From a virus: 25,284 nt of DNA. Below the pieces are notes generated by a model. The model did not search any database. It was not told where the DNA came from and saw only the letters and a list, made by a program, of their open reading frames with translations. Every line of letters starts with the position of its first letter. The stretch's first letter is position 1. The stretch is from IMG/VR virus record IMGVR_UViG_3300025120_000495, positions 1-25,284 of that record. The stretch is one strand, 5' to 3'. This document shows positions 2 to 23,638 of this stretch, one piece after another. Both the position numbers and the translations under genes were made by a program.

Positions 2-145
2 TACGATCAAAAGGTTTACAACCTAATACAAGGAGAATATAGTATAACAGAACTATCAAAGAAAACAAACATAACCTATCATTCTCTTTACAACACATTT
101 AGAAAAGTAAAGGATAGACTAAAAGAAAAGATAAATGAAGATTAA
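2..145 (+). CDS. C-terminal part of a small HTH-like early protein (5' end outside window)
   Basis: An open frame enters from the left edge and ends at TAA 143-145, giving 47 residues. The stretch ITELSKKTNITYHSLYNT reads like a helix-turn-helix (first helix, turn at TNIT, recognition helix), followed by a basic tail RKVKDRLKEKI. This suggests a DNA-binding domain, perhaps a sigma-like or transposase-like HTH in an early-region regulator. The start and the rest of the protein are missing, so the family cannot be named. Its stop codon lies inside the left arm of the first hairpin repeat. Being open to the window edge and in the same direction as the next genes supports it as real. Confidence 0.55.
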   Translation, partial: YDQKVYNLIQGEYSITELSKKTNITYHSLYNTFRKVKDRLKEKINED

Positions 146-191
146 CGCTGAGTGTATGGGGCGTTTTAATGCCTTTTACACCTTGTTAGGT
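143..191 (+). repeat. Hairpin repeat copy 1 (attC-like element left of the methyltransferase gene)
   Basis: An 11-nt arm (GTGTATGGGGC, 152-162) faces GCCTTTTACAC (171-181) across the loop GTTTTAAT (163-170). Pairing is complete apart from one T-T mismatch and two G-T wobbles. Outside the stem, TAAC (143-146) can pair with GTTA (185-188), leaving unpaired spacers GCTGA and CTT. The right end GTTAGGT fits the GTTRRRY consensus of integron attC sites; the left end fits RYYYAAC in all but one position. No T-tract follows, so it is a poor intrinsic terminator. A second copy with the same loop lies at 1043-1084. Confidence 0.7.
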
Positions 192-215
192 GTAGTTTAA
201 TTTAAAATAATAAGA

Positions 216-992
216 ATGGATTTATTTAATACAGAAAAAGAGTATTTTTTACCTAAAGAATATATAGGTAAAGAAACTAAAAACGGAGGTTTAACAAAAA
301 ACAATCCGAGAAAATGGACTAAAAAAGAAATTGAATGGGCTTTAAACCTAAAAGAAAAAGGGTTTAAAAATAAAGATATAGCAAAGTTTTTGTATAGAGA
401 TTTGATTAGTGTTTCTATAAAGATGAAAAGACTATCTAAAAAGAACGGTGTTACCTATAACGAGCCACATAGAGAAGATAAGTACCGACACAATGATTTA
501 TTTTTAGCAGAGATTAAACCTAAAGTAGTTTTAGACTTGTTTTCGGGTGCTACATCATATTATGACGATAAAGTAGATGTACTTTACACAAATGATATAG
601 ATAAAAGGTTTAATACTTACTATTCTGAAAAAGCTGAAAAATTAGTATGTAAATTATATTATGAAAAGGCAAAGTTTGATTTAATAGATATTGATCCGTT
701 TGGCTCTGCTTATGATTGTTTTGATTTGTGTATAAAGATGGCTATAAAAGGATTAATTATAACACTTGGAGAAATAGGACATAAAAGATGGAAAAGGTTA
801 GATTTTGTAAGAACTCATTACGGAATTGAAAGTTTAGAAGATTTTACAAGCAAAAGGATAGTTAATGAAATAATAAAAATAGGTGCAAGAAATAAGAAAA
901 AACTTATACCAATATTTTTAAATGATTATAGAAATATATCAAGAGTTTATTTTAAGATTGAAAAATTAAAAATAACAGAGCAATGGGAGTAA
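216..992 (+). CDS. HTH plus Trm1-like SAM-dependent methyltransferase
   Basis: This 258-residue protein has two parts. Residues about 33-77 look like a helix-turn-helix (WTKKEIEWAL followed by GFKNKDIAKFL). Residues about 103-190 look like a class I methyltransferase core: motif I VLDLFSG (105-111), an acidic end of the second strand TNDID (125-129), and DIDPFGS (158-164). DPFGS is the signature of the Trm1 tRNA guanine-26 methyltransferase family, not the DPPY/NPPY of adenine-N6 DNA methylases, but the protein is much shorter than Trm1. The substrate (tRNA, phage DNA or other RNA) cannot be read from the sequence; the N-terminal HTH favours nucleic acid. The gene stands alone between two matching hairpins, as an accessory cassette would. 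The ATG at 216 follows an A/T-rich leader. Confidence 0.6.
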   Translation: MDLFNTEKEYFLPKEYIGKETKNGGLTKNNPRKWTKKEIEWALNLKEKGFKNKDIAKFLYRDLISVSIKMKRLSKKNGVTYNEPHREDKYRHNDLFLAEIKPKVVLDLFSGATSYYDDKVDVLYTNDIDKRFNTYYSEKAEKLVCKLYYEKAKFDLIDIDPFGSAYDCFDLCIKMAIKGLIITLGEIGHKRWKRLDFVRTHYGIESLEDFTSKRIVNEIIKIGARNKKKLIPIFLNDYRNISRVYFKIEKLKITEQWE

Positions 993-1042
993 TTACACCT
1001 AATTGAGAGAGAATGCACTTACAAACCTTTAATTGTTTAGAA

Positions 1043-1084
1043 TAATTGTGTATGGCACGTTTTAATGTGTTATACACTTAGTTA
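1043..1084 (+). repeat. Hairpin repeat copy 2 (right of the methyltransferase gene)
   Basis: GTGTATGGCAC (1048-1058) and GTGTTATACAC (1067-1077) pair through all 11 positions (two G-T) around the loop GTTTTAAT, identical to copy 1. The inner three pairs differ from copy 1 (CAC/GTG against GGC/GCC) with both sides changed, so the pairing is kept although the sequence is not. TAAT (1043-1046) can pair with GTTA (1081-1084), three nt outside the stem as in copy 1. Just after the methyltransferase stop, TTACACCTAATTGAG resembles the right flank of copy 1 and may be a remnant of another copy. Confidence 0.7.
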
Positions 1085-1108
1085 AAATGAATATTAACTT
1101 TTAAATAT

Positions 1109-1237
1109 ATGAAACTAGGAGACTTAATAGAACGCATCACATACTATACTGGTATTAAATGGTTATGGAAGAAACTCTATCCAGATTGCAGGTGTAAAGA
1201 AAGACAAGAAAACTTAAACGATATAGAACTATGGTAA
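1109..1237 (+). CDS. Small conserved-looking phage protein with a CxC motif
   Basis: A 42-residue protein starting MKLGDLIERITYYTGIKWL, with CRCKERQENL near the end. The layout (short amphipathic N-terminus, aromatic middle, CxC followed by charged residues) resembles small proteins I associate with phages of Flavobacteriia, but I cannot name a function. The two cysteines could bind metal only with partners from another chain. The start ATG at 1109 follows TTAAATAT, a typical leader here, and the stop overlaps the next gene by 7 nt, which supports translation as part of an operon. Confidence 0.6.
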   Translation: MKLGDLIERITYYTGIKWLWKKLYPDCRCKERQENLNDIELW

Positions 1238-11519: not shown

Positions 11520-12008
11520 ATGAGCATAAAAAGCGAAGCAATAATAATAAGAGATGAAACAACAACTGGAGCAAACACTGCTGCTAGAGTTGGAGGAAAC
11601 CTTGTATCTATTGCAGATGATTTAATATCAAAACAAACTGAGATAGATTTAAATAGTGCTAAAGTTGGTATTACAACGCAACAAGCAACAGACATTACTA
11701 CAAATACTGCTAAAGTTGGTATTACAACGCAACAAGCAACAGACATTACTACAAATACTGCTAAAGTTGGTATTACAACGCAACAAGCAACAGACATTAC
11801 TACAAATACTGCTAAAGTTTCTTTTGATAGTGCTTCAAGTACAAAGCTAGGAGGAATTGAAACTAGTGCAGAAGTTAATACTATTAACTCAACAACTACA
11901 TCAGAACCAACTGGAAGCGATTTAGTTTACAATGTTGTTAGTTTGACACAAGCAGAATATGATGCTGGAAGTCCAGTAGCAACAACATTTTACTTAATAG
12001 TCGGATAA
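11520..12008 (+). CDS. Fibre/shaft protein with 17-residue tandem repeats
   Basis: A 162-residue protein without Cys or Trp. After an N-terminal region (ETTTGANTAARVGGNLVSIA) that resembles trimeric fibre N-termini, there are three exact copies of a 17-residue unit (AKVGITTQQATDITTNT, residues 47-97) and a partial fourth. The heptad-like A/V/I/T spacing suggests a coiled or beta-helical trimeric shaft. The C-terminus, LTQAEYDAGSPVATTFYLIVG, is a motif I associate with Bacteroidota phage tail appendages. It probably forms a thin fibre next to the BspA-like protein encoded just downstream (1-nt gap). Confidence 0.7.
   Translation: MSIKSEAIIIRDETTTGANTAARVGGNLVSIADDLISKQTEIDLNSAKVGITTQQATDITTNTAKVGITTQQATDITTNTAKVGITTQQATDITTNTAKVSFDSASSTKLGGIETSAEVNTINSTTTSEPTGSDLVYNVVSLTQAEYDAGSPVATTFYLIVG
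11658..11810 (+). repeat. Three perfect 51-bp tandem repeats in the fibre gene
   Basis: Units at 11658-11708, 11709-11759 and 11760-11810 are identical base for base; a partial fourth (GCTAAAGTT) follows at 11811. The unit is 17 codons, so gain or loss of copies keeps the reading frame. Identity at third codon positions points to recent duplication or active homogenisation. Confidence 0.95.
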
Positions 12009-12009
12009 T

Positions 12010-12918
12010 ATGGCTATAAAGTTAGGAAGTGCTAGTATTTCAAAATTATACTTAGGAAGCAATGAAATATCAAAAGCCTATTTAGGTGCTAATGAAGTTT
12101 TTTCAAGTGGAGATACTACAACTTTTATTACAACTTGGAGAACAACAACAAGTAATGAATCTATAACTATTCCTACATTTGGAATTGGATATAATTACGA
12201 TTTAACTACATCTGATGGTCAAGAATTTACTGGATTAATTGGAGCTAAGACAATAACATTTGCTGCATCAGGAGACTATGATGTGTCAATAAGTGGAGTA
12301 TTTCCTAGAATTTACATTAATAATAACGTTACAAATAAGGTTAAATTAATTGATATCAAACAATGGGGTAATATTGCTTGGTCAAGTTTTAGAAATGCTT
12401 TTTATGGATGCTCAAACTTAACTGGTTCGTTCACGGATGCTCCAAACCTTACAAATGTTACTGATTTAGAACGAGCTTTTTATGGATGTTCATCTTTTAA
12501 TCAAAACATAGGTAGTTGGGACGTTAGTGGTGTTACTAATATGAATAGAACATTTTTTCAAGCATTTGTTTTTAATCAACCCATTGGAAATTGGGATGTT
12601 TCAAATGTTACAAATATGAATAGAATGCTTTTTCAAAACACTAATTTTAATCAATCTTTAAATTGGGATGTTAGTAGCGCAACAGATATGTCTGTATTAT
12701 TAAGTGGAGCAACTTTATCAACTGCTAATTACGATGCTACATTGATAAATTTAGAAAGTAAATTACAAGCAACATATCCAAATGGAAGTGGATATACAGC
12801 TAGTATTTCAACTAGTTTTGGAAGTTCAAAATACACAAGTGGGGGAACTGCTGCTGCTGCTAGGGCATCATTAGTAAGTAATTTTGGATGGTCAATAGTT
12901 GACGGAGGTGCTGCTTAA
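12010..12918 (+). CDS. BspA-like (DUF285-type) repeat tail appendage protein, copy A
   Basis: A 302-residue protein. The N-terminus, AIKLGSASISKLYLGSNEIS, is a short repeat (SxxxLYLGxNE) seen on Bacteroidota phage tail proteins and probably docks it on the virion. The centre has BspA-like repeats of about 25 residues built on FNQxxxxWDVSxVTNMxxxF (about residues 157-225), the DUF285 type found in cell-surface adhesins. The C-terminal domain ends SNFGWSIVDGG. It probably faces the host surface as a receptor-binding or adhesion protein; that role is inferred. A homologue with a different N-terminus is at 18587-19579, and each is followed by a related small gene. Confidence 0.75.
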   Translation: MAIKLGSASISKLYLGSNEISKAYLGANEVFSSGDTTTFITTWRTTTSNESITIPTFGIGYNYDLTTSDGQEFTGLIGAKTITFAASGDYDVSISGVFPRIYINNNVTNKVKLIDIKQWGNIAWSSFRNAFYGCSNLTGSFTDAPNLTNVTDLERAFYGCSSFNQNIGSWDVSGVTNMNRTFFQAFVFNQPIGNWDVSNVTNMNRMLFQNTNFNQSLNWDVSSATDMSVLLSGATLSTANYDATLINLESKLQATYPNGSGYTASISTSFGSSKYTSGGTAAAARASLVSNFGWSIVDGGAA

Positions 12919-12932
12919 ATAAATAAATAAAT

Positions 12933-13139
12933 ATGATTGAATTAAAAAATACAAGTATTTGCTACCCAACCAATGAAACTTGGTTTATATGCTGGGATAA
13001 TACTAGAACAGAAATAAAAGCATTTGGCTCTATTTTAACAGACCAATGTCTAGAAACTCCTTGGATTGAAATAGACTATTACGACAATGAAGAACAATGG
13101 GCAGAAATACTAATTAAAAATGAAATAAATCCATTTTAA
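12933..13139 (+). CDS. Small partner protein of BspA-like protein, copy A
   Basis: A 68-residue acidic, aromatic-rich protein (ETWFICWDNTRTEIKAFGS, then EIDYYDNEEQWAEILI). It is clearly homologous to the 72-residue product of 19588-19806; both directly follow a BspA-like gene after a short TAAATAAATA-type leader (14 nt here). The strict pairing suggests the two products work together, as an assembly chaperone or a tip subunit, but no known family is recognised. No signal peptide or membrane segment. Confidence 0.75.
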   Translation: MIELKNTSICYPTNETWFICWDNTRTEIKAFGSILTDQCLETPWIEIDYYDNEEQWAEILIKNEINPF

Positions 13140-18514: not shown

Positions 18515-18612
18515 TTAAAGGAATGTACAAACCAAAAAAAACAAATGTTGTTAAATTAAAAAAGTATCTAACTAAAAAAGAAAAAGATGGCAAACGAGGC
18601 ATACGAGAATAG
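18511..18612 (+). CDS. Small basic protein
   Basis: ATG at 18511 overlaps the connector stop (ATGA); 33 codons to TAG 18610-18612, overlapping the next gene by 26 nt. About 13 of 33 residues are Lys or Arg (PKKTNVVKLKKYLTKKEKDG). Such tiny basic proteins occur next to virion genes, but no function can be assigned. Overlaps on both sides fit the coding style here; shortness keeps confidence low. Confidence 0.45.
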   Translation: MIKGMYKPKKTNVVKLKKYLTKKEKDGKRGIRE

Positions 18613-19579
18613 TTGGTGGGGTAGTCCAGTAGAGAATGGTTGGGGTGGTATTTATTATGATTTTGCTCAAGGTGGTGGTTTAGATGGTACATCTTTTATC
18701 ACAACTTGGCGAACGACATCTGCAAACGAAACAATCACAATACCAACTAGTGGAGGAAGCTATAATTATGATATAAGTACCTCCGATGGTCAGACTTTTA
18801 CTGGTGTAAGTGGTAACCAAGCAATAACTTTTGCTACTGCTGGAGATTATGACGTATCTATTAGTGGAGATTTCCCTAGAATTAGAATTAATGACGGAGT
18901 AGATAAAGATAAAATAATTGATATAAAGCAATGGGGAAACATTGTTTGGTCAAATTTTGGAAGTGCTTTTTTTGGATGCTCAAACTTAACCGGTTCTTTT
19001 ACGGATGCACCAAATCTTGCAAATGTTACAAGTTTTGACAATTCATTTAGAAATTGCTCATCTTTTTCTACTAATTTATCTTCGTGGGATGTTAGCAATG
19101 TTACTAGTTTTAACAGTGCTTTTTTAATTTTTGGAGCAACTGCACCATCTACTCCAGTTAGTGGATTAGGTTCGTGGGATATGAGTAGTGCTACTAATAT
19201 TAGTGCAATGTTGAGAAACCAAACAAACTACAACGAGGATTTAAGTTCTTGGAATGTTAGCAATGTTACTAATATGAGTAACACATTTTTTGGTGCTACA
19301 TCTTTCGACCAAAACCTATCGGCGTGGGATATTGCAAACGTAACAAATTTCACAAATTTTGCTAAAAGCGCTACTTTTTCAACATCAAATTACGACGCTA
19401 TTTTAATTGGCTGGGAGGCAACATTGCAAGCAGCATTTCCAAATGGTAGTGGTTATGCACCTACAATTAGTATAAATTTTGGAAATAGTCAATATACAAG
19501 TGGTGGAGCATCAGAAACTGCAAGAACATCATTAATAAACAACTTTAATTGGACTATCACAGATGGTGGTTCTATATAA
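18587..19579 (+). CDS. BspA-like (DUF285-type) repeat tail appendage protein, copy B
   Basis: A 330-residue homologue of the 12010-12918 product. From about residue 33 (SFITTWRTTSANETITIP) the two align throughout: the same immunoglobulin-like first domain, the sequence IDIKQWGNIVWSNFGSAFFG, BspA-like repeats on SSWDVSNVTxFxxxF, and the end NNFNWTITDGG. The N-terminus differs completely: EAYENSWWGSPVENGWGGIY, a Trp-rich motif seen at N-termini of other phage virion proteins. So the outer part is shared while the docking part is swapped. It probably decorates another position of the virion than copy A. Small partner gene follows. Confidence 0.75.
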   Translation: MANEAYENSWWGSPVENGWGGIYYDFAQGGGLDGTSFITTWRTTSANETITIPTSGGSYNYDISTSDGQTFTGVSGNQAITFATAGDYDVSISGDFPRIRINDGVDKDKIIDIKQWGNIVWSNFGSAFFGCSNLTGSFTDAPNLANVTSFDNSFRNCSSFSTNLSSWDVSNVTSFNSAFLIFGATAPSTPVSGLGSWDMSSATNISAMLRNQTNYNEDLSSWNVSNVTNMSNTFFGATSFDQNLSAWDIANVTNFTNFAKSATFSTSNYDAILIGWEATLQAAFPNGSGYAPTISINFGNSQYTSGGASETARTSLINNFNWTITDGGSI

Positions 19580-19587
19580 ATAAAAAA

Positions 19588-19806
19588 ATGGCTGAATTAA
19601 AAGAATTAAAAAATACAATTGTTTGTTATCCAGTTCCAGAAACTTGGTTTATCTGTTGGGATAGCAATAGAACAGAAATAACAGTATATGGTTCTATTTT
19701 GCCTACGCAATGTATGGAAACACATTGGTTTCAAATTGACTATTATGACAATGAGGAGGATTGGGCAAAAGTTTTATTGAATAACGGAATAAATCCTTTT
19801 GAATAA
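19588..19806 (+). CDS. Small partner protein of BspA-like protein, copy B
   Basis: A 72-residue homologue of the 12933-13139 product, sharing ETWFICWD, NRTEI, GSIL, QCMETHWFQIDYYDNEEDWA and the GINPF end. Start chosen at ATG 19588, 8 nt after the BspA-like gene, because it gives the same N-terminus as the other copy; an upstream in-frame ATG at 19549 would overlap the preceding gene. A function together with the BspA-like protein is inferred. Its stop shares an A with the next start. Confidence 0.75.
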   Translation: MAELKELKNTIVCYPVPETWFICWDSNRTEITVYGSILPTQCMETHWFQIDYYDNEEDWAKVLLNNGINPFE

Positions 19807-21164: not shown

Positions 21165-22361
21165 ATGGGAAAAGACAACAGATTTAGATTATCAGACGAA
21201 AAAGCCAAAAAATTAGGATTAGTTTTAAATAAATCAAAACGTTACAGACTAAATAAAGAAAAACAAAAAGAATTAAAAAATGAAGTAAAATCAGAATCAA
21301 AACCAAACAATTATAACTCTAGTTCTTTTGTTCTATCTGCTTGGAATATGTCAAGTGGTCAGATGATGAATATAGACAAGTATTGTACGCATTATAGTTT
21401 ACCAAGAGCAGATATATCTTCTTATAAACTAGTATCACATACTGGTACTCCTTATTATAATATAGTCTTTAAAGAAAATGTTGTAGATAATGATGTAGAT
21501 GTAGAACACATCCGAAAAGTTTTACAAGATGAAATTGTAAGAGATTACAATCCTATAAAATATCACTACAAGCAAAATAAAGAAGCAGTACTAAAATGGG
21601 CAGACCTACACTTTGGGGCACATATTAGGAATCTTCTTATTACTCATGACTACGATAAAGATATATTAGAGAAAGGATTACTCAGAAGTGTTGAGGAAAC
21701 AAATGAGCTAGGTTTTAAAAAAGTTCACGTTCACATTAACGGAGATTTGATAGAGAGTTTCTCTGGTTTAAATCACATCAATTCTTGGATGTCTATGGAT
21801 AAAGATTTGATTGGATCAAAAGCAGTAATGCTATGTACTAAATTATTAGACAACGCATTATCTAAAATAAAAAATCTTGGTACTATTAAAATTGTAGCTG
21901 GTAATCACGATCGTTTGTCAAAAGCCAACGATGAAGATGTAAAAGGTGGAGCTGCTGAGTTAATTGCTTGGGGTTTAGAACTAAAAGGATATGATATAGA
22001 CTTTCATCCGTTTGTAACTACGCATCAGGTAGAGGGAATTAATCATATAAACTTACATGGAGATAAAGGTATTTCTAAAAAAGCATCTAGTGATATAATT
22101 TTAAACTATGGTAAGCAAGGTACTTACAATTTCATATTTGAAGCTCATTTACATTCTATTATAGAAAAACTATCAGTATCTCAAAGAAGCAAGTTTAATA
22201 TTGTATCTGATGATTCTGTAAATTTTAGACGTATGCATCTACCAAGTTTTTTTACTGGTAATTATTACTCTGAGACTTTAGGGTATAACTCTAACTCTGG
22301 TTACACTTTAGTATGGGATAATGGAAAAGGAAAACCAAATGTTTTGTCTTGTACTGTTTAA
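21165..22361 (+). CDS. Calcineurin-like metallophosphoesterase with N-terminal extension
   Basis: A 398-residue protein. The phosphoesterase domain (about 140-390) shows the family motifs in order: ADLHFGAH (Asp 147, His 149), INGDLIE (Asp 194), VAGNHDR (246-250), LHGD (His 298) and EAHLHS (His 328, 330). All metal ligands expected of the fold are visible. The first 130 residues are a basic region and a small HTH-like or winged domain that may bind DNA. The family cuts phosphodiesters; Mre11/SbcD-type nucleases belong to it, but no SbcC partner is encoded. It is transcribed alone, tail to tail with integrase (4-nt overlap). Its role in the phage is unknown. Confidence 0.85.
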   Translation: MGKDNRFRLSDEKAKKLGLVLNKSKRYRLNKEKQKELKNEVKSESKPNNYNSSSFVLSAWNMSSGQMMNIDKYCTHYSLPRADISSYKLVSHTGTPYYNIVFKENVVDNDVDVEHIRKVLQDEIVRDYNPIKYHYKQNKEAVLKWADLHFGAHIRNLLITHDYDKDILEKGLLRSVEETNELGFKKVHVHINGDLIESFSGLNHINSWMSMDKDLIGSKAVMLCTKLLDNALSKIKNLGTIKIVAGNHDRLSKANDEDVKGGAAELIAWGLELKGYDIDFHPFVTTHQVEGINHINLHGDKGISKKASSDIILNYGKQGTYNFIFEAHLHSIIEKLSVSQRSKFNIVSDDSVNFRRMHLPSFFTGNYYSETLGYNSNSGYTLVWDNGKGKPNVLSCTV

Positions 22362-23638
22362 AGAATAAAATCTATTTTCTCAGACCAATCCTCTGGAATG
22401 TCTGCATCAATTTTATGTATATACATTTCAAGAGCTTGTTGCGTTTCATGTCCAGTAATTGGTTGTAGTTCTTTTATTGCTTCTGAGTAGCTTTTGTTCT
22501 CAGTACTTCTTAAATACCTAAAAAGATTTGTAATAAAAGAATGACGGAAAGAATACAAACCATATTCTTTGCCTAAGTTGAATTTATTTTTTACTTTTTT
22601 AAATCGTTTACTAAATGCATCTCTTCTTGTATTGTCATCTGTATTCCATTCTGCTGGTTTATTTTTTAAAGTGAATAAGAAATACTCCTTATTATATAGG
22701 TGTAAATTCATTGCTTTTACATCTTCTATAAATATACTTGGAATGCGTTTTGTTTTTTGTGGTTTGTTTTTTGCTTTAAAATATAAAAGATTTTCTTCTA
22801 GGTTTACATCTTTTACTCTTAATCTGTTTACCTCAACTGGACGTAGAAAGCAATACGAGACAAAACGGATATACATTAATAAATACGGATCGTTATTTTT
22901 TAAATAGTCTACAATATCTTTAAGTTCTTTTCTAGTAAAGGTTCTATCTGTTTTTGGTTTTGTCTTTTCGTTACCTATGTCTTTAATAAAGTTTCTATCT
23001 ATTAAATTAAGTTTGTTTTCCATTATGGTAAACAGAGCTGATAAAGATGCTTTTGAGTTGTTGCGAGTTCTTGCAGATGTTTCTTTTAGTTTTTGATTTA
23101 AGAATTTAAGAACGACAGACTTTGTTAAATCGTTTATGTCTTTGTTTTGGTTATATTTAAGAAAGTCTAAAAATTGGTTCTTTGTATGAAGGTAGTCTTT
23201 AGATGTTATTTTAGAAACAGATAGAGTACAATGTTCATAAGCTAACTCTAATGCTTCTTTTATAGTATGTACTTTTTTTTCATCTTCAAAGTTGTTTAAA
23301 TTAAAAGGGGAGTAGCCATTTCTAATTGCAGTTTCTAATCCAAACTTTAAATTCTTTAAATGCCTTACTCTATCCTCAAATTTTTTTAATTTATTAACTC
23401 CTCCTTTTAAATGGCTTTGCCTTTCTAGTTTGTTTGTATTTGGATTTCTAAAAGACCATCTTAAATACCAAGACTTTTTTAGTGCTTTTGTTTTTTCACT
23501 TTTGCTTAAATATTTCCATTCATTGACGTTTATTCCTCCAGTATAAAAAGAAATAGTGTATTTTTTTTGCATTTTTTTTAAAACATCTAGTGCGTACTCT
23601 ACAACGTATTTTTGAAGTATTTTTTTATTTTTCTTCAT
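22358..23638 (-). CDS. int: Tyrosine integrase
   Basis: A 426-residue site-specific recombinase. The N-terminal third (about 1-120) is lysine-rich with aromatic strands (KSWYLRWSFRNPNTNKLERQ), typical of arm-binding domains; a SAM-like core-binding domain lies at about 124-215 (TIKEALELAYEH...); the catalytic domain follows. Catalytic residues: Arg 266 (FLRPVEVNRL), Lys in KAKNKPQKTKR (about 290), Arg 365 in YSFRHSF, His 397 (TGHET) and Tyr 406 (ALEMYIH). The usual HxxR is YxxR here (Tyr 362). The start at 23638 lies 66 nt from the attachment core. It inserts the phage at a tRNA gene. Confidence 0.93.
   Translation of the reverse strand: MKKNKKILQKYVVEYALDVLKKMQKKYTISFYTGGINVNEWKYLSKSEKTKALKKSWYLRWSFRNPNTNKLERQSHLKGGVNKLKKFEDRVRHLKNLKFGLETAIRNGYSPFNLNNFEDEKKVHTIKEALELAYEHCTLSVSKITSKDYLHTKNQFLDFLKYNQNKDINDLTKSVVLKFLNQKLKETSARTRNNSKASLSALFTIMENKLNLIDRNFIKDIGNEKTKPKTDRTFTRKELKDIVDYLKNNDPYLLMYIRFVSYCFLRPVEVNRLRVKDVNLEENLLYFKAKNKPQKTKRIPSIFIEDVKAMNLHLYNKEYFLFTLKNKPAEWNTDDNTRRDAFSKRFKKVKNKFNLGKEYGLYSFRHSFITNLFRYLRSTENKSYSEAIKELQPITGHETQQALEMYIHKIDADIPEDWSEKIDFIL

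Follow-up and report, generated by a model that had tools for sequence, protein, structure and literature searches.

The stretch of DNA analysed here (the window) is a whole virus record of 25,284 bases, with terminase, portal and integrase genes within it. At the locus of interest, an accessory gene lies between two phage backbone genes and is accompanied by two hairpins (Table 1). The Pfam TRM family that the gene weakly matches, with a score below the Pfam cut-off, is tRNA N2,N2-dimethylguanosine methyltransferase. Copy 1 of the hairpin has arms at 152-162 and 171-181, the loop GTTTTAAT at 163-170 and GTTA at 185-188; the corresponding positions in copy 2 are 1048-1058 and 1067-1077 (arms), 1059-1066 (same loop) and 1081-1084 (GTTA). 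These coordinates agree with a preliminary description of two hairpins with 11-nt arms, identical loops and a GTTA three nt past the stem, and the inner pairs indeed vary yet stay paired (GGC/GCC in copy 1, CAC/GTG in copy 2). The stem of copy 1 contains one T-T mismatch and some G-T pairs, and there is no third hairpin copy elsewhere in the 25,284 bases.

Table 1. Parts of the window's locus as interpreted here (the slash in AA/C marks the proposed exchange position)
Feature	Position	Strand	Observation
Upstream phage backbone gene, 3' end (runs off window)	2-145	+	Homologous in >40 relatives, usually abutting the gene at 1109 there
Left R box GATTAAC, belonging to site 1; exchange AA/C = 145/146	140-146	+	Homology to L290/L213/L288 ends at 146
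attC-type site 1: hairpin 152-181, right R box GTTAGGTGTA 185-194	146-194	+	Covariance-model match 137-200, 64.8 bits, E 2.3e-11
Cassette gene, 258 aa	216-992	+	Weak Pfam TRM match, below cut-off
3' end box of cassette, TACACCTAA/T, exchange 1002/1003	994-1003	+	9/9 complementary to TTAGGTGTA at 186-194; L188 homology ends at 1002
38-nt remnant between cassette end and site 2	1003-1040		
attC-type site 2: box AAT 1041-1043, hairpin 1048-1077, right R box from 1081	1041-1090	+	Covariance-model match 1034-1096, 42.7 bits
Next phage backbone gene, MKLGDLIERITYYTG...	1109-1237	+	Follows the upstream gene directly where relatives have an empty junction

The boxes outside the stems fit the attC consensus RYYYAAC/GTTRRRY, as had been proposed for the GTTAGGT end: those of copy 1 read GATTAAC...GTTAGGT, and the left box of copy 2 is degenerate. 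This outer box of site 2 is mutated to AAT in the window and reads AAC in relatives; the site 2 hairpin itself is identical in more than 15 other phage contigs, and site 2 is not the partner of site 1. The stop codon that had been placed in the left arm of copy 1 (TAA, 143-145) sits instead in the outer R box (ATTAAC, 141-146). Folding of the single sequences as DNA is equivocal, with copy 1 alone favouring a different fold and copy 2 reaching a z of about -1.9, and such folding of a lone copy is uninformative because R boxes of different cassettes flank one hairpin.

Other repeated features occur along the window. The motif TTTCATTATATA (at most one mismatch) is found eight times over both strands, with 1.1 occurrences expected. 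Its plus-strand copies lie at 2026, 3632, 10748, 13170, 15831, 20528 and 21150; several stop about 4-5 nt upstream of an ATG (3647, 10763, 13185, 15847, 21165), and the motif is often preceded by a T-rich terminator-like stretch, so that it is likely a phage promoter or leader element. Positions 12010-13139 and 18587-19806, 6.6 kb apart, are a duplicated module in the structural region: paralogous gene pairs, 71-81% identical in stretches, each with a gene for a repeat-rich protein (about 300 aa) and, after it, one for a small protein. At 11636-11819, inside the ORF at 11520-12008, a 51-nt unit is present three times in tandem, as in fibre-like proteins.

Scanning with GTATGNNNCGTTTTAATG yielded 90 stretches in viral contigs, many of which are chance matches with unpaired arms. 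Scanning of genomes yielded 61, mainly in Bacteroidota and above all in Flavobacteriia. Wherever the arms pair, the layout is the same: RYYYAAC - spacer - stem - GTTTTAAT - stem - spacer - GTTRRRY, with a stem of 11 bp. An alignment of 43 diverse members was used for covariation and pair counts, and in it the R''/R' boxes RYYYAAC and GTTRRRY bracket a pairing inner stem, as they do in attC. In the named structure 82.9% of cells are paired; the covariation score is 0.376, against 0.175 +/- 0.012 for shuffled alignments, none of 500 shuffles reaches it, and shifting the partner abolishes it. The earlier view that structure rather than sequence is kept in these hairpins was thus borne out over 43 sequences. 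A covariance-model search, the check proposed at that stage, found both window sites (Table 1) and a family spread over flavophages and Bacteroidota genomes.

One stem position on the GTTTTAAT strand is G-U in 36 of 43 members and A-U in 6 of 43. Because this near-fixed G-U would be a C-A mismatch on the opposite strand, the comparison shows that selection for folding acts on the GTTTTAAT strand. Extrahelical unpaired bottom-strand bases, the canonical attC marker, were not seen in the family, and a G-T/A-C position stands in their place; this, together with a very short, fixed loop of 8 nt, sets the GTTTTAAT sites apart from integron attC sites.

Cultured phages with such sites are Tenacibaculum phage JQ, Polaribacter phage P12002L and Cellulophaga phage phi13:2, and phage JQ was the sole meaningful match when the window segment was compared with the phage collection by blastn. 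P12002L carries three members of the GTTTTAAT-loop family, and two of these lie around genes for DNA methyltransferases. In the same genome, a second attC-like layout (TAACAACGGATAAAACAAGTTTTACCAAAC...) at 29170-29260 and 37199-37310, both missed by the model, sits downstream of two methyltransferase genes, and further site families thus exist within P12002L. Chimeric hairpins, with the left arm of one type and the right arm of another, were also observed (L287 4876-4939; L007, L010 and L061). They join at the loop and have a weakened stem, which implies exchange inside the loop; ordinary homologous exchange therefore also acts on these hairpins.

In integrons, both ends of one cassette are complementary because both form one site in the circle, and adjacent boxes in an array stem from different cassettes. 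We compared the seven bases past GTT with the seven ahead of AAC, counted at least six matches as positive and gave sites with two GTT equal freedom in all categories. Pairing of the R boxes within one site is absent (0/69 in phages, 1/73 in bacteria); the correct partner is the next site, with 9/28 positive in phages (Fisher p 9e-9) and 26/60 in bacteria (Fisher p 1e-27). The previous site gave 1/28 and 0/60, and random sites gave 2.2% in phages and 1.9% in bacteria. Next-site pairing is the rule of integron cassettes and the decisive test of this relationship. The comparison shows hairpin-plus-gene units with mutually complementary ends, each of which runs from the C of one AAC through hairpin and gene up to the AA of the next.

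The window unit obeys the same rule. Because 185-194 (GTTAGGTGTA) pairs with 994-1002 (TACACCTAA) at nine of nine positions, the cassette of the window is 146-1002, and the site that would be reconstituted in its circle (TACACCTAAC...GTTAGGTGTA) folds well (-12.8 kcal/mol, z -4.3). The limits first assigned to the cassette, 192-1042, with hairpin 2 as its other border, have to be replaced: the cassette ends at AA/C, at 145/146 on the left and 1002/1003 on the right, and hairpin 2 forms a site of its own beyond the 38-nt remnant.

Junctions in relatives bear on the same units; the contigs compared are metagenomic and mostly fragments. The hairpin is common to 22 phage loci. In one phage group, the backbone is 80-98% identical over 1-3 kb, homology sets in exactly at AAC, and the left flanks, at least 12 of which are unrelated, stop there. 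A fixed backbone anchor hairpin holds true of this one group; the group of the window has hairpin-free empty junctions. One unit (L008 5955-7360 and L020 753-2267) is 91% identical between the two loci, has different neighbours on both sides and begins and ends no more than a few nt from the boxes. By this comparison, junctions between unrelated DNA fall at the AAC box.

The nearest relatives of the window gene are in L187 (88% aa identity) and L188 (86%), and the nucleotide homology between the window and L188 covers 198-1002, ending exactly at the AA/C exchange position. Around the terminase of the window phage, about 20 relatives lack the 146-1100 segment, and their upstream gene adjoins the gene at 1109; other relatives have a different gene at this locus, in many cases for a C5 DNA methyltransferase, and none of these hairpins. 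The segment is thus absent or replaced in close relatives, a comparison that the preliminary description had asked for. Part of what that description had named as evidence against a cassette does occur, since L188-L194 carry the gene without these hairpins. Because gene-bearing and other-gene relatives without hairpins exist, not every accessory-gene exchange at the window locus uses these sites. The left box of the window is suggestive of a cut 5' end of the C5-methyltransferase gene that relatives carry here (ATGAAGATTAAC), over only about 12 nt; such an origin would mean an attG-like insertion.

Sites differ strictly in polarity between phages and bacteria. In phage contexts, flanking genes run along the GTTTTAAT strand in 39 cases and against it in 0; in bacterial arrays, they run against it in 55 and along it in 0 (p 2e-27, for contexts that are deduplicated but non-independent). 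These counts are of contexts with both neighbours concordant, leaving out those with mixed or missing neighbours. Sites of multi-site viral loci are co-oriented in 18/18. The counts of 55:0 and 0:39 place the bacterial site at the 3' side of its gene, which is the classical arrangement, and the phage site at the 5' side. Genes are accordingly read towards their site, as expected of attC, in bacterial arrays but not in phages, the window included. The equivalent of the bottom strand of attC is the GTTTTAAT strand, and the window gene is back to front relative to its site. Since the next-site rule holds in phages and bacteria alike, it is the phage genes that are inverted within the unit, a difference from integron cassettes. 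We know of no description of such a reversed polarity of phage cassettes. Possible causes are the direction of phage transcription, single-strand exposure in replication or a useful mRNA hairpin.

Bacteroidota genomes carry dense, co-oriented arrays of these sites, with up to 14 sites in 9 kb (Adhaeribacter terrigena). When one flavobacterial family was sampled evenly, 37/120 genomes had at least one site (E <= 1e-4), and in a wider sample of the class 12/118 are positive besides the centre genome. IntI/XerA-like tyrosine recombinases adjoin the arrays: 6/120 genomes of the family sample have an integrase no more than 5 kb from a site and 10/120 no more than 20 kb from one, where a rough Poisson estimate with positions taken from tables gives about 0.3 and 1.1, respectively. 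Nine of the 10 site-proximal integrases are opposite to the GTTTTAAT strand and thus codirectional with the cassette genes, unlike IntI. The array enzymes match both the integron-integrase model TIGR02249 (192-222 bits, cut-off 265) and the XerA-like model NF040815 (about 216-234 bits, cut-off 220), as well as the solved structures of archaeal XerA and Vibrio IntI4. They differ from IntI in remaining below the TIGR02249 cut-off, in lacking about 40 residues that match profile positions 180-240 (the IntI-specific region) and in having extra N-terminal domains. Among 20 genomes searched, no integrase exceeded the integron cut-off, and an IntI-clade integrase beside an array was found neither near the window sites nor in Bacteroidota relatives. 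Downstream of several array integrases (L157-L171), 30-300 nt past their stop codons, a recurrent palindrome (for example AAACGTAC..GTACGTTT) is followed by a GTTRRRY-like box and could be an attI.

We consider it very probable that the hairpins are attC-type sites and that a flavobacterial phage here carries an integron-type gene cassette, 146-1002. End complementarity, junction mapping, presence and absence in relatives and arrays beside integrases support the earlier view that a movable, integron-like cassette is framed by recombination sites that fold as single strands. For cassette mobility we propose the following route. The GTTTTAAT strand would fold as single-stranded DNA, and a tyrosine recombinase would bind the paired R and stem boxes and exchange strands at AA/C. 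In the cassette circle, TACACCTAA would close onto C-GCTGAG... to give a complete site, and the circle could then insert at a further site or into a phage genome at a plain AAC. The recombinase would probably be supplied by a host integron, most likely as an IntI/XerA-like enzyme beside Bacteroidota arrays, because the window phage has no such enzyme and its own integrase is only distantly related.

The polarity of the sites bears on whether the hairpin works as RNA, that is, as a processing, stability or terminator element of phage mRNA that lies between genes by chance. In phages, GTTTTAAT reads in the coding sense, the sites stand directly past a stop codon or ahead of a start, and the sequence makes a good intergenic hairpin containing G-U. 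However, in Bacteroidota arrays the GTTTTAAT strand is antisense, yet the pairing is kept there, including the G-U position. An RNA element predicts neither the end complementarity of neighbouring units nor junctions at AAC, and an Rfam search with the hairpins gave no match at or above any family's gathering cut-off. As the whole explanation an RNA element is exceedingly unlikely, and it may be a secondary use of the hairpin in phages. We consider it very improbable that the hairpins are a REP- or MITE-like dispersed repeat, a mere mark of gene borders offering short homology to phage recombination. Near-identical hairpins across unrelated flanks would fit such a repeat, as would the chimeric hairpins, whose two types were exchanged within the loop common to both. 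Exchange by homology would cross inside the hairpin, though, whereas the main family keeps the hairpin whole and switches at AAC; next-site complementarity and strict co-orientation into arrays are not features of REP or REP/RAYT elements.

The attC-type sites might also be moved by a phage-encoded tyrosine recombinase instead of a host integron integrase. The window does encode a tyrosine integrase at 22358-23638, which matches the integron-integrase model weakly (46.5 bits), and a polarity difference between phages and bacteria is what a separate phage system might show. This integrase is 18% identical to the array-adjacent enzymes, with no phmmer match to them, and lies 22 kb from the sites, and we do not favour it as the enzyme. 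No integrase was found encoded with the phage sites, and the annotated genome of P12002L, with its three sites, lists none. Movement by a phage enzyme is therefore improbable.

Cassettes with attC-type sites in phages that lack an integrase have been described before. Qi et al. 2023 (PMC9892861) reported attC sites and CALINs in phages, including Polaribacter phage P12002L, and IntI1 recombined one P12002L attC (attC2), which may or may not be a member of the GTTTTAAT family. The Bacteroidota family, its loop, next-site complementarity and the reversed phage polarity are not defined there. With integron cassettes and attC sites (59-be), the present family shares RYYYAAC/GTTRRRY R''/R' boxes, a paired inner stem, a length of about 55-65 nt, complementary ends, co-oriented arrays and junctions located at the AAC/GTT box. 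Genomic insertion of integron cassettes at attG sites (Loot et al. 2024, as cited in PMC12901181) may have a parallel in the left junction of the window, which lies at an AAC, with only about 12 nt to suggest it. In the survey with IntegronFinder 2.0 (2022), the only complete integron of Bacteroidetes is in Salinibacter ruber, and none of the 11 taxon-specific attC models of Ghaly 2021 is for Bacteroidota. Our literature search, whose coverage takes in few subscription papers, found no description of flavobacterial integrons. The sites and arrays form a large, little-described integron-like system in Bacteroidota, in which the strict reversal of polarity between phages and bacteria and array integrases without the IntI-specific insertion look new.

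More broadly, Bacteroidota and their phages may share a distinct integron-like lineage, with short attC sites, a fixed GTTTTAAT loop and a recombinase without the IntI insertion. Phages would hold a separate, inverted cassette pool in which phage transcription, not Pc, sets polarity, and accessory genes, including methyltransferases, would be exchanged through the host enzyme. We give equal weight to this wider picture being right or wrong. The array enzymes make the role of the IntI-specific insertion directly testable, and the strict polarity reversal raises the question whether phage and bacterial cassette pools exchange at all. For marine flavophages, the hairpin pair points to a testable route by which accessory genes are swapped, among them methyltransferases, which could counter host restriction.
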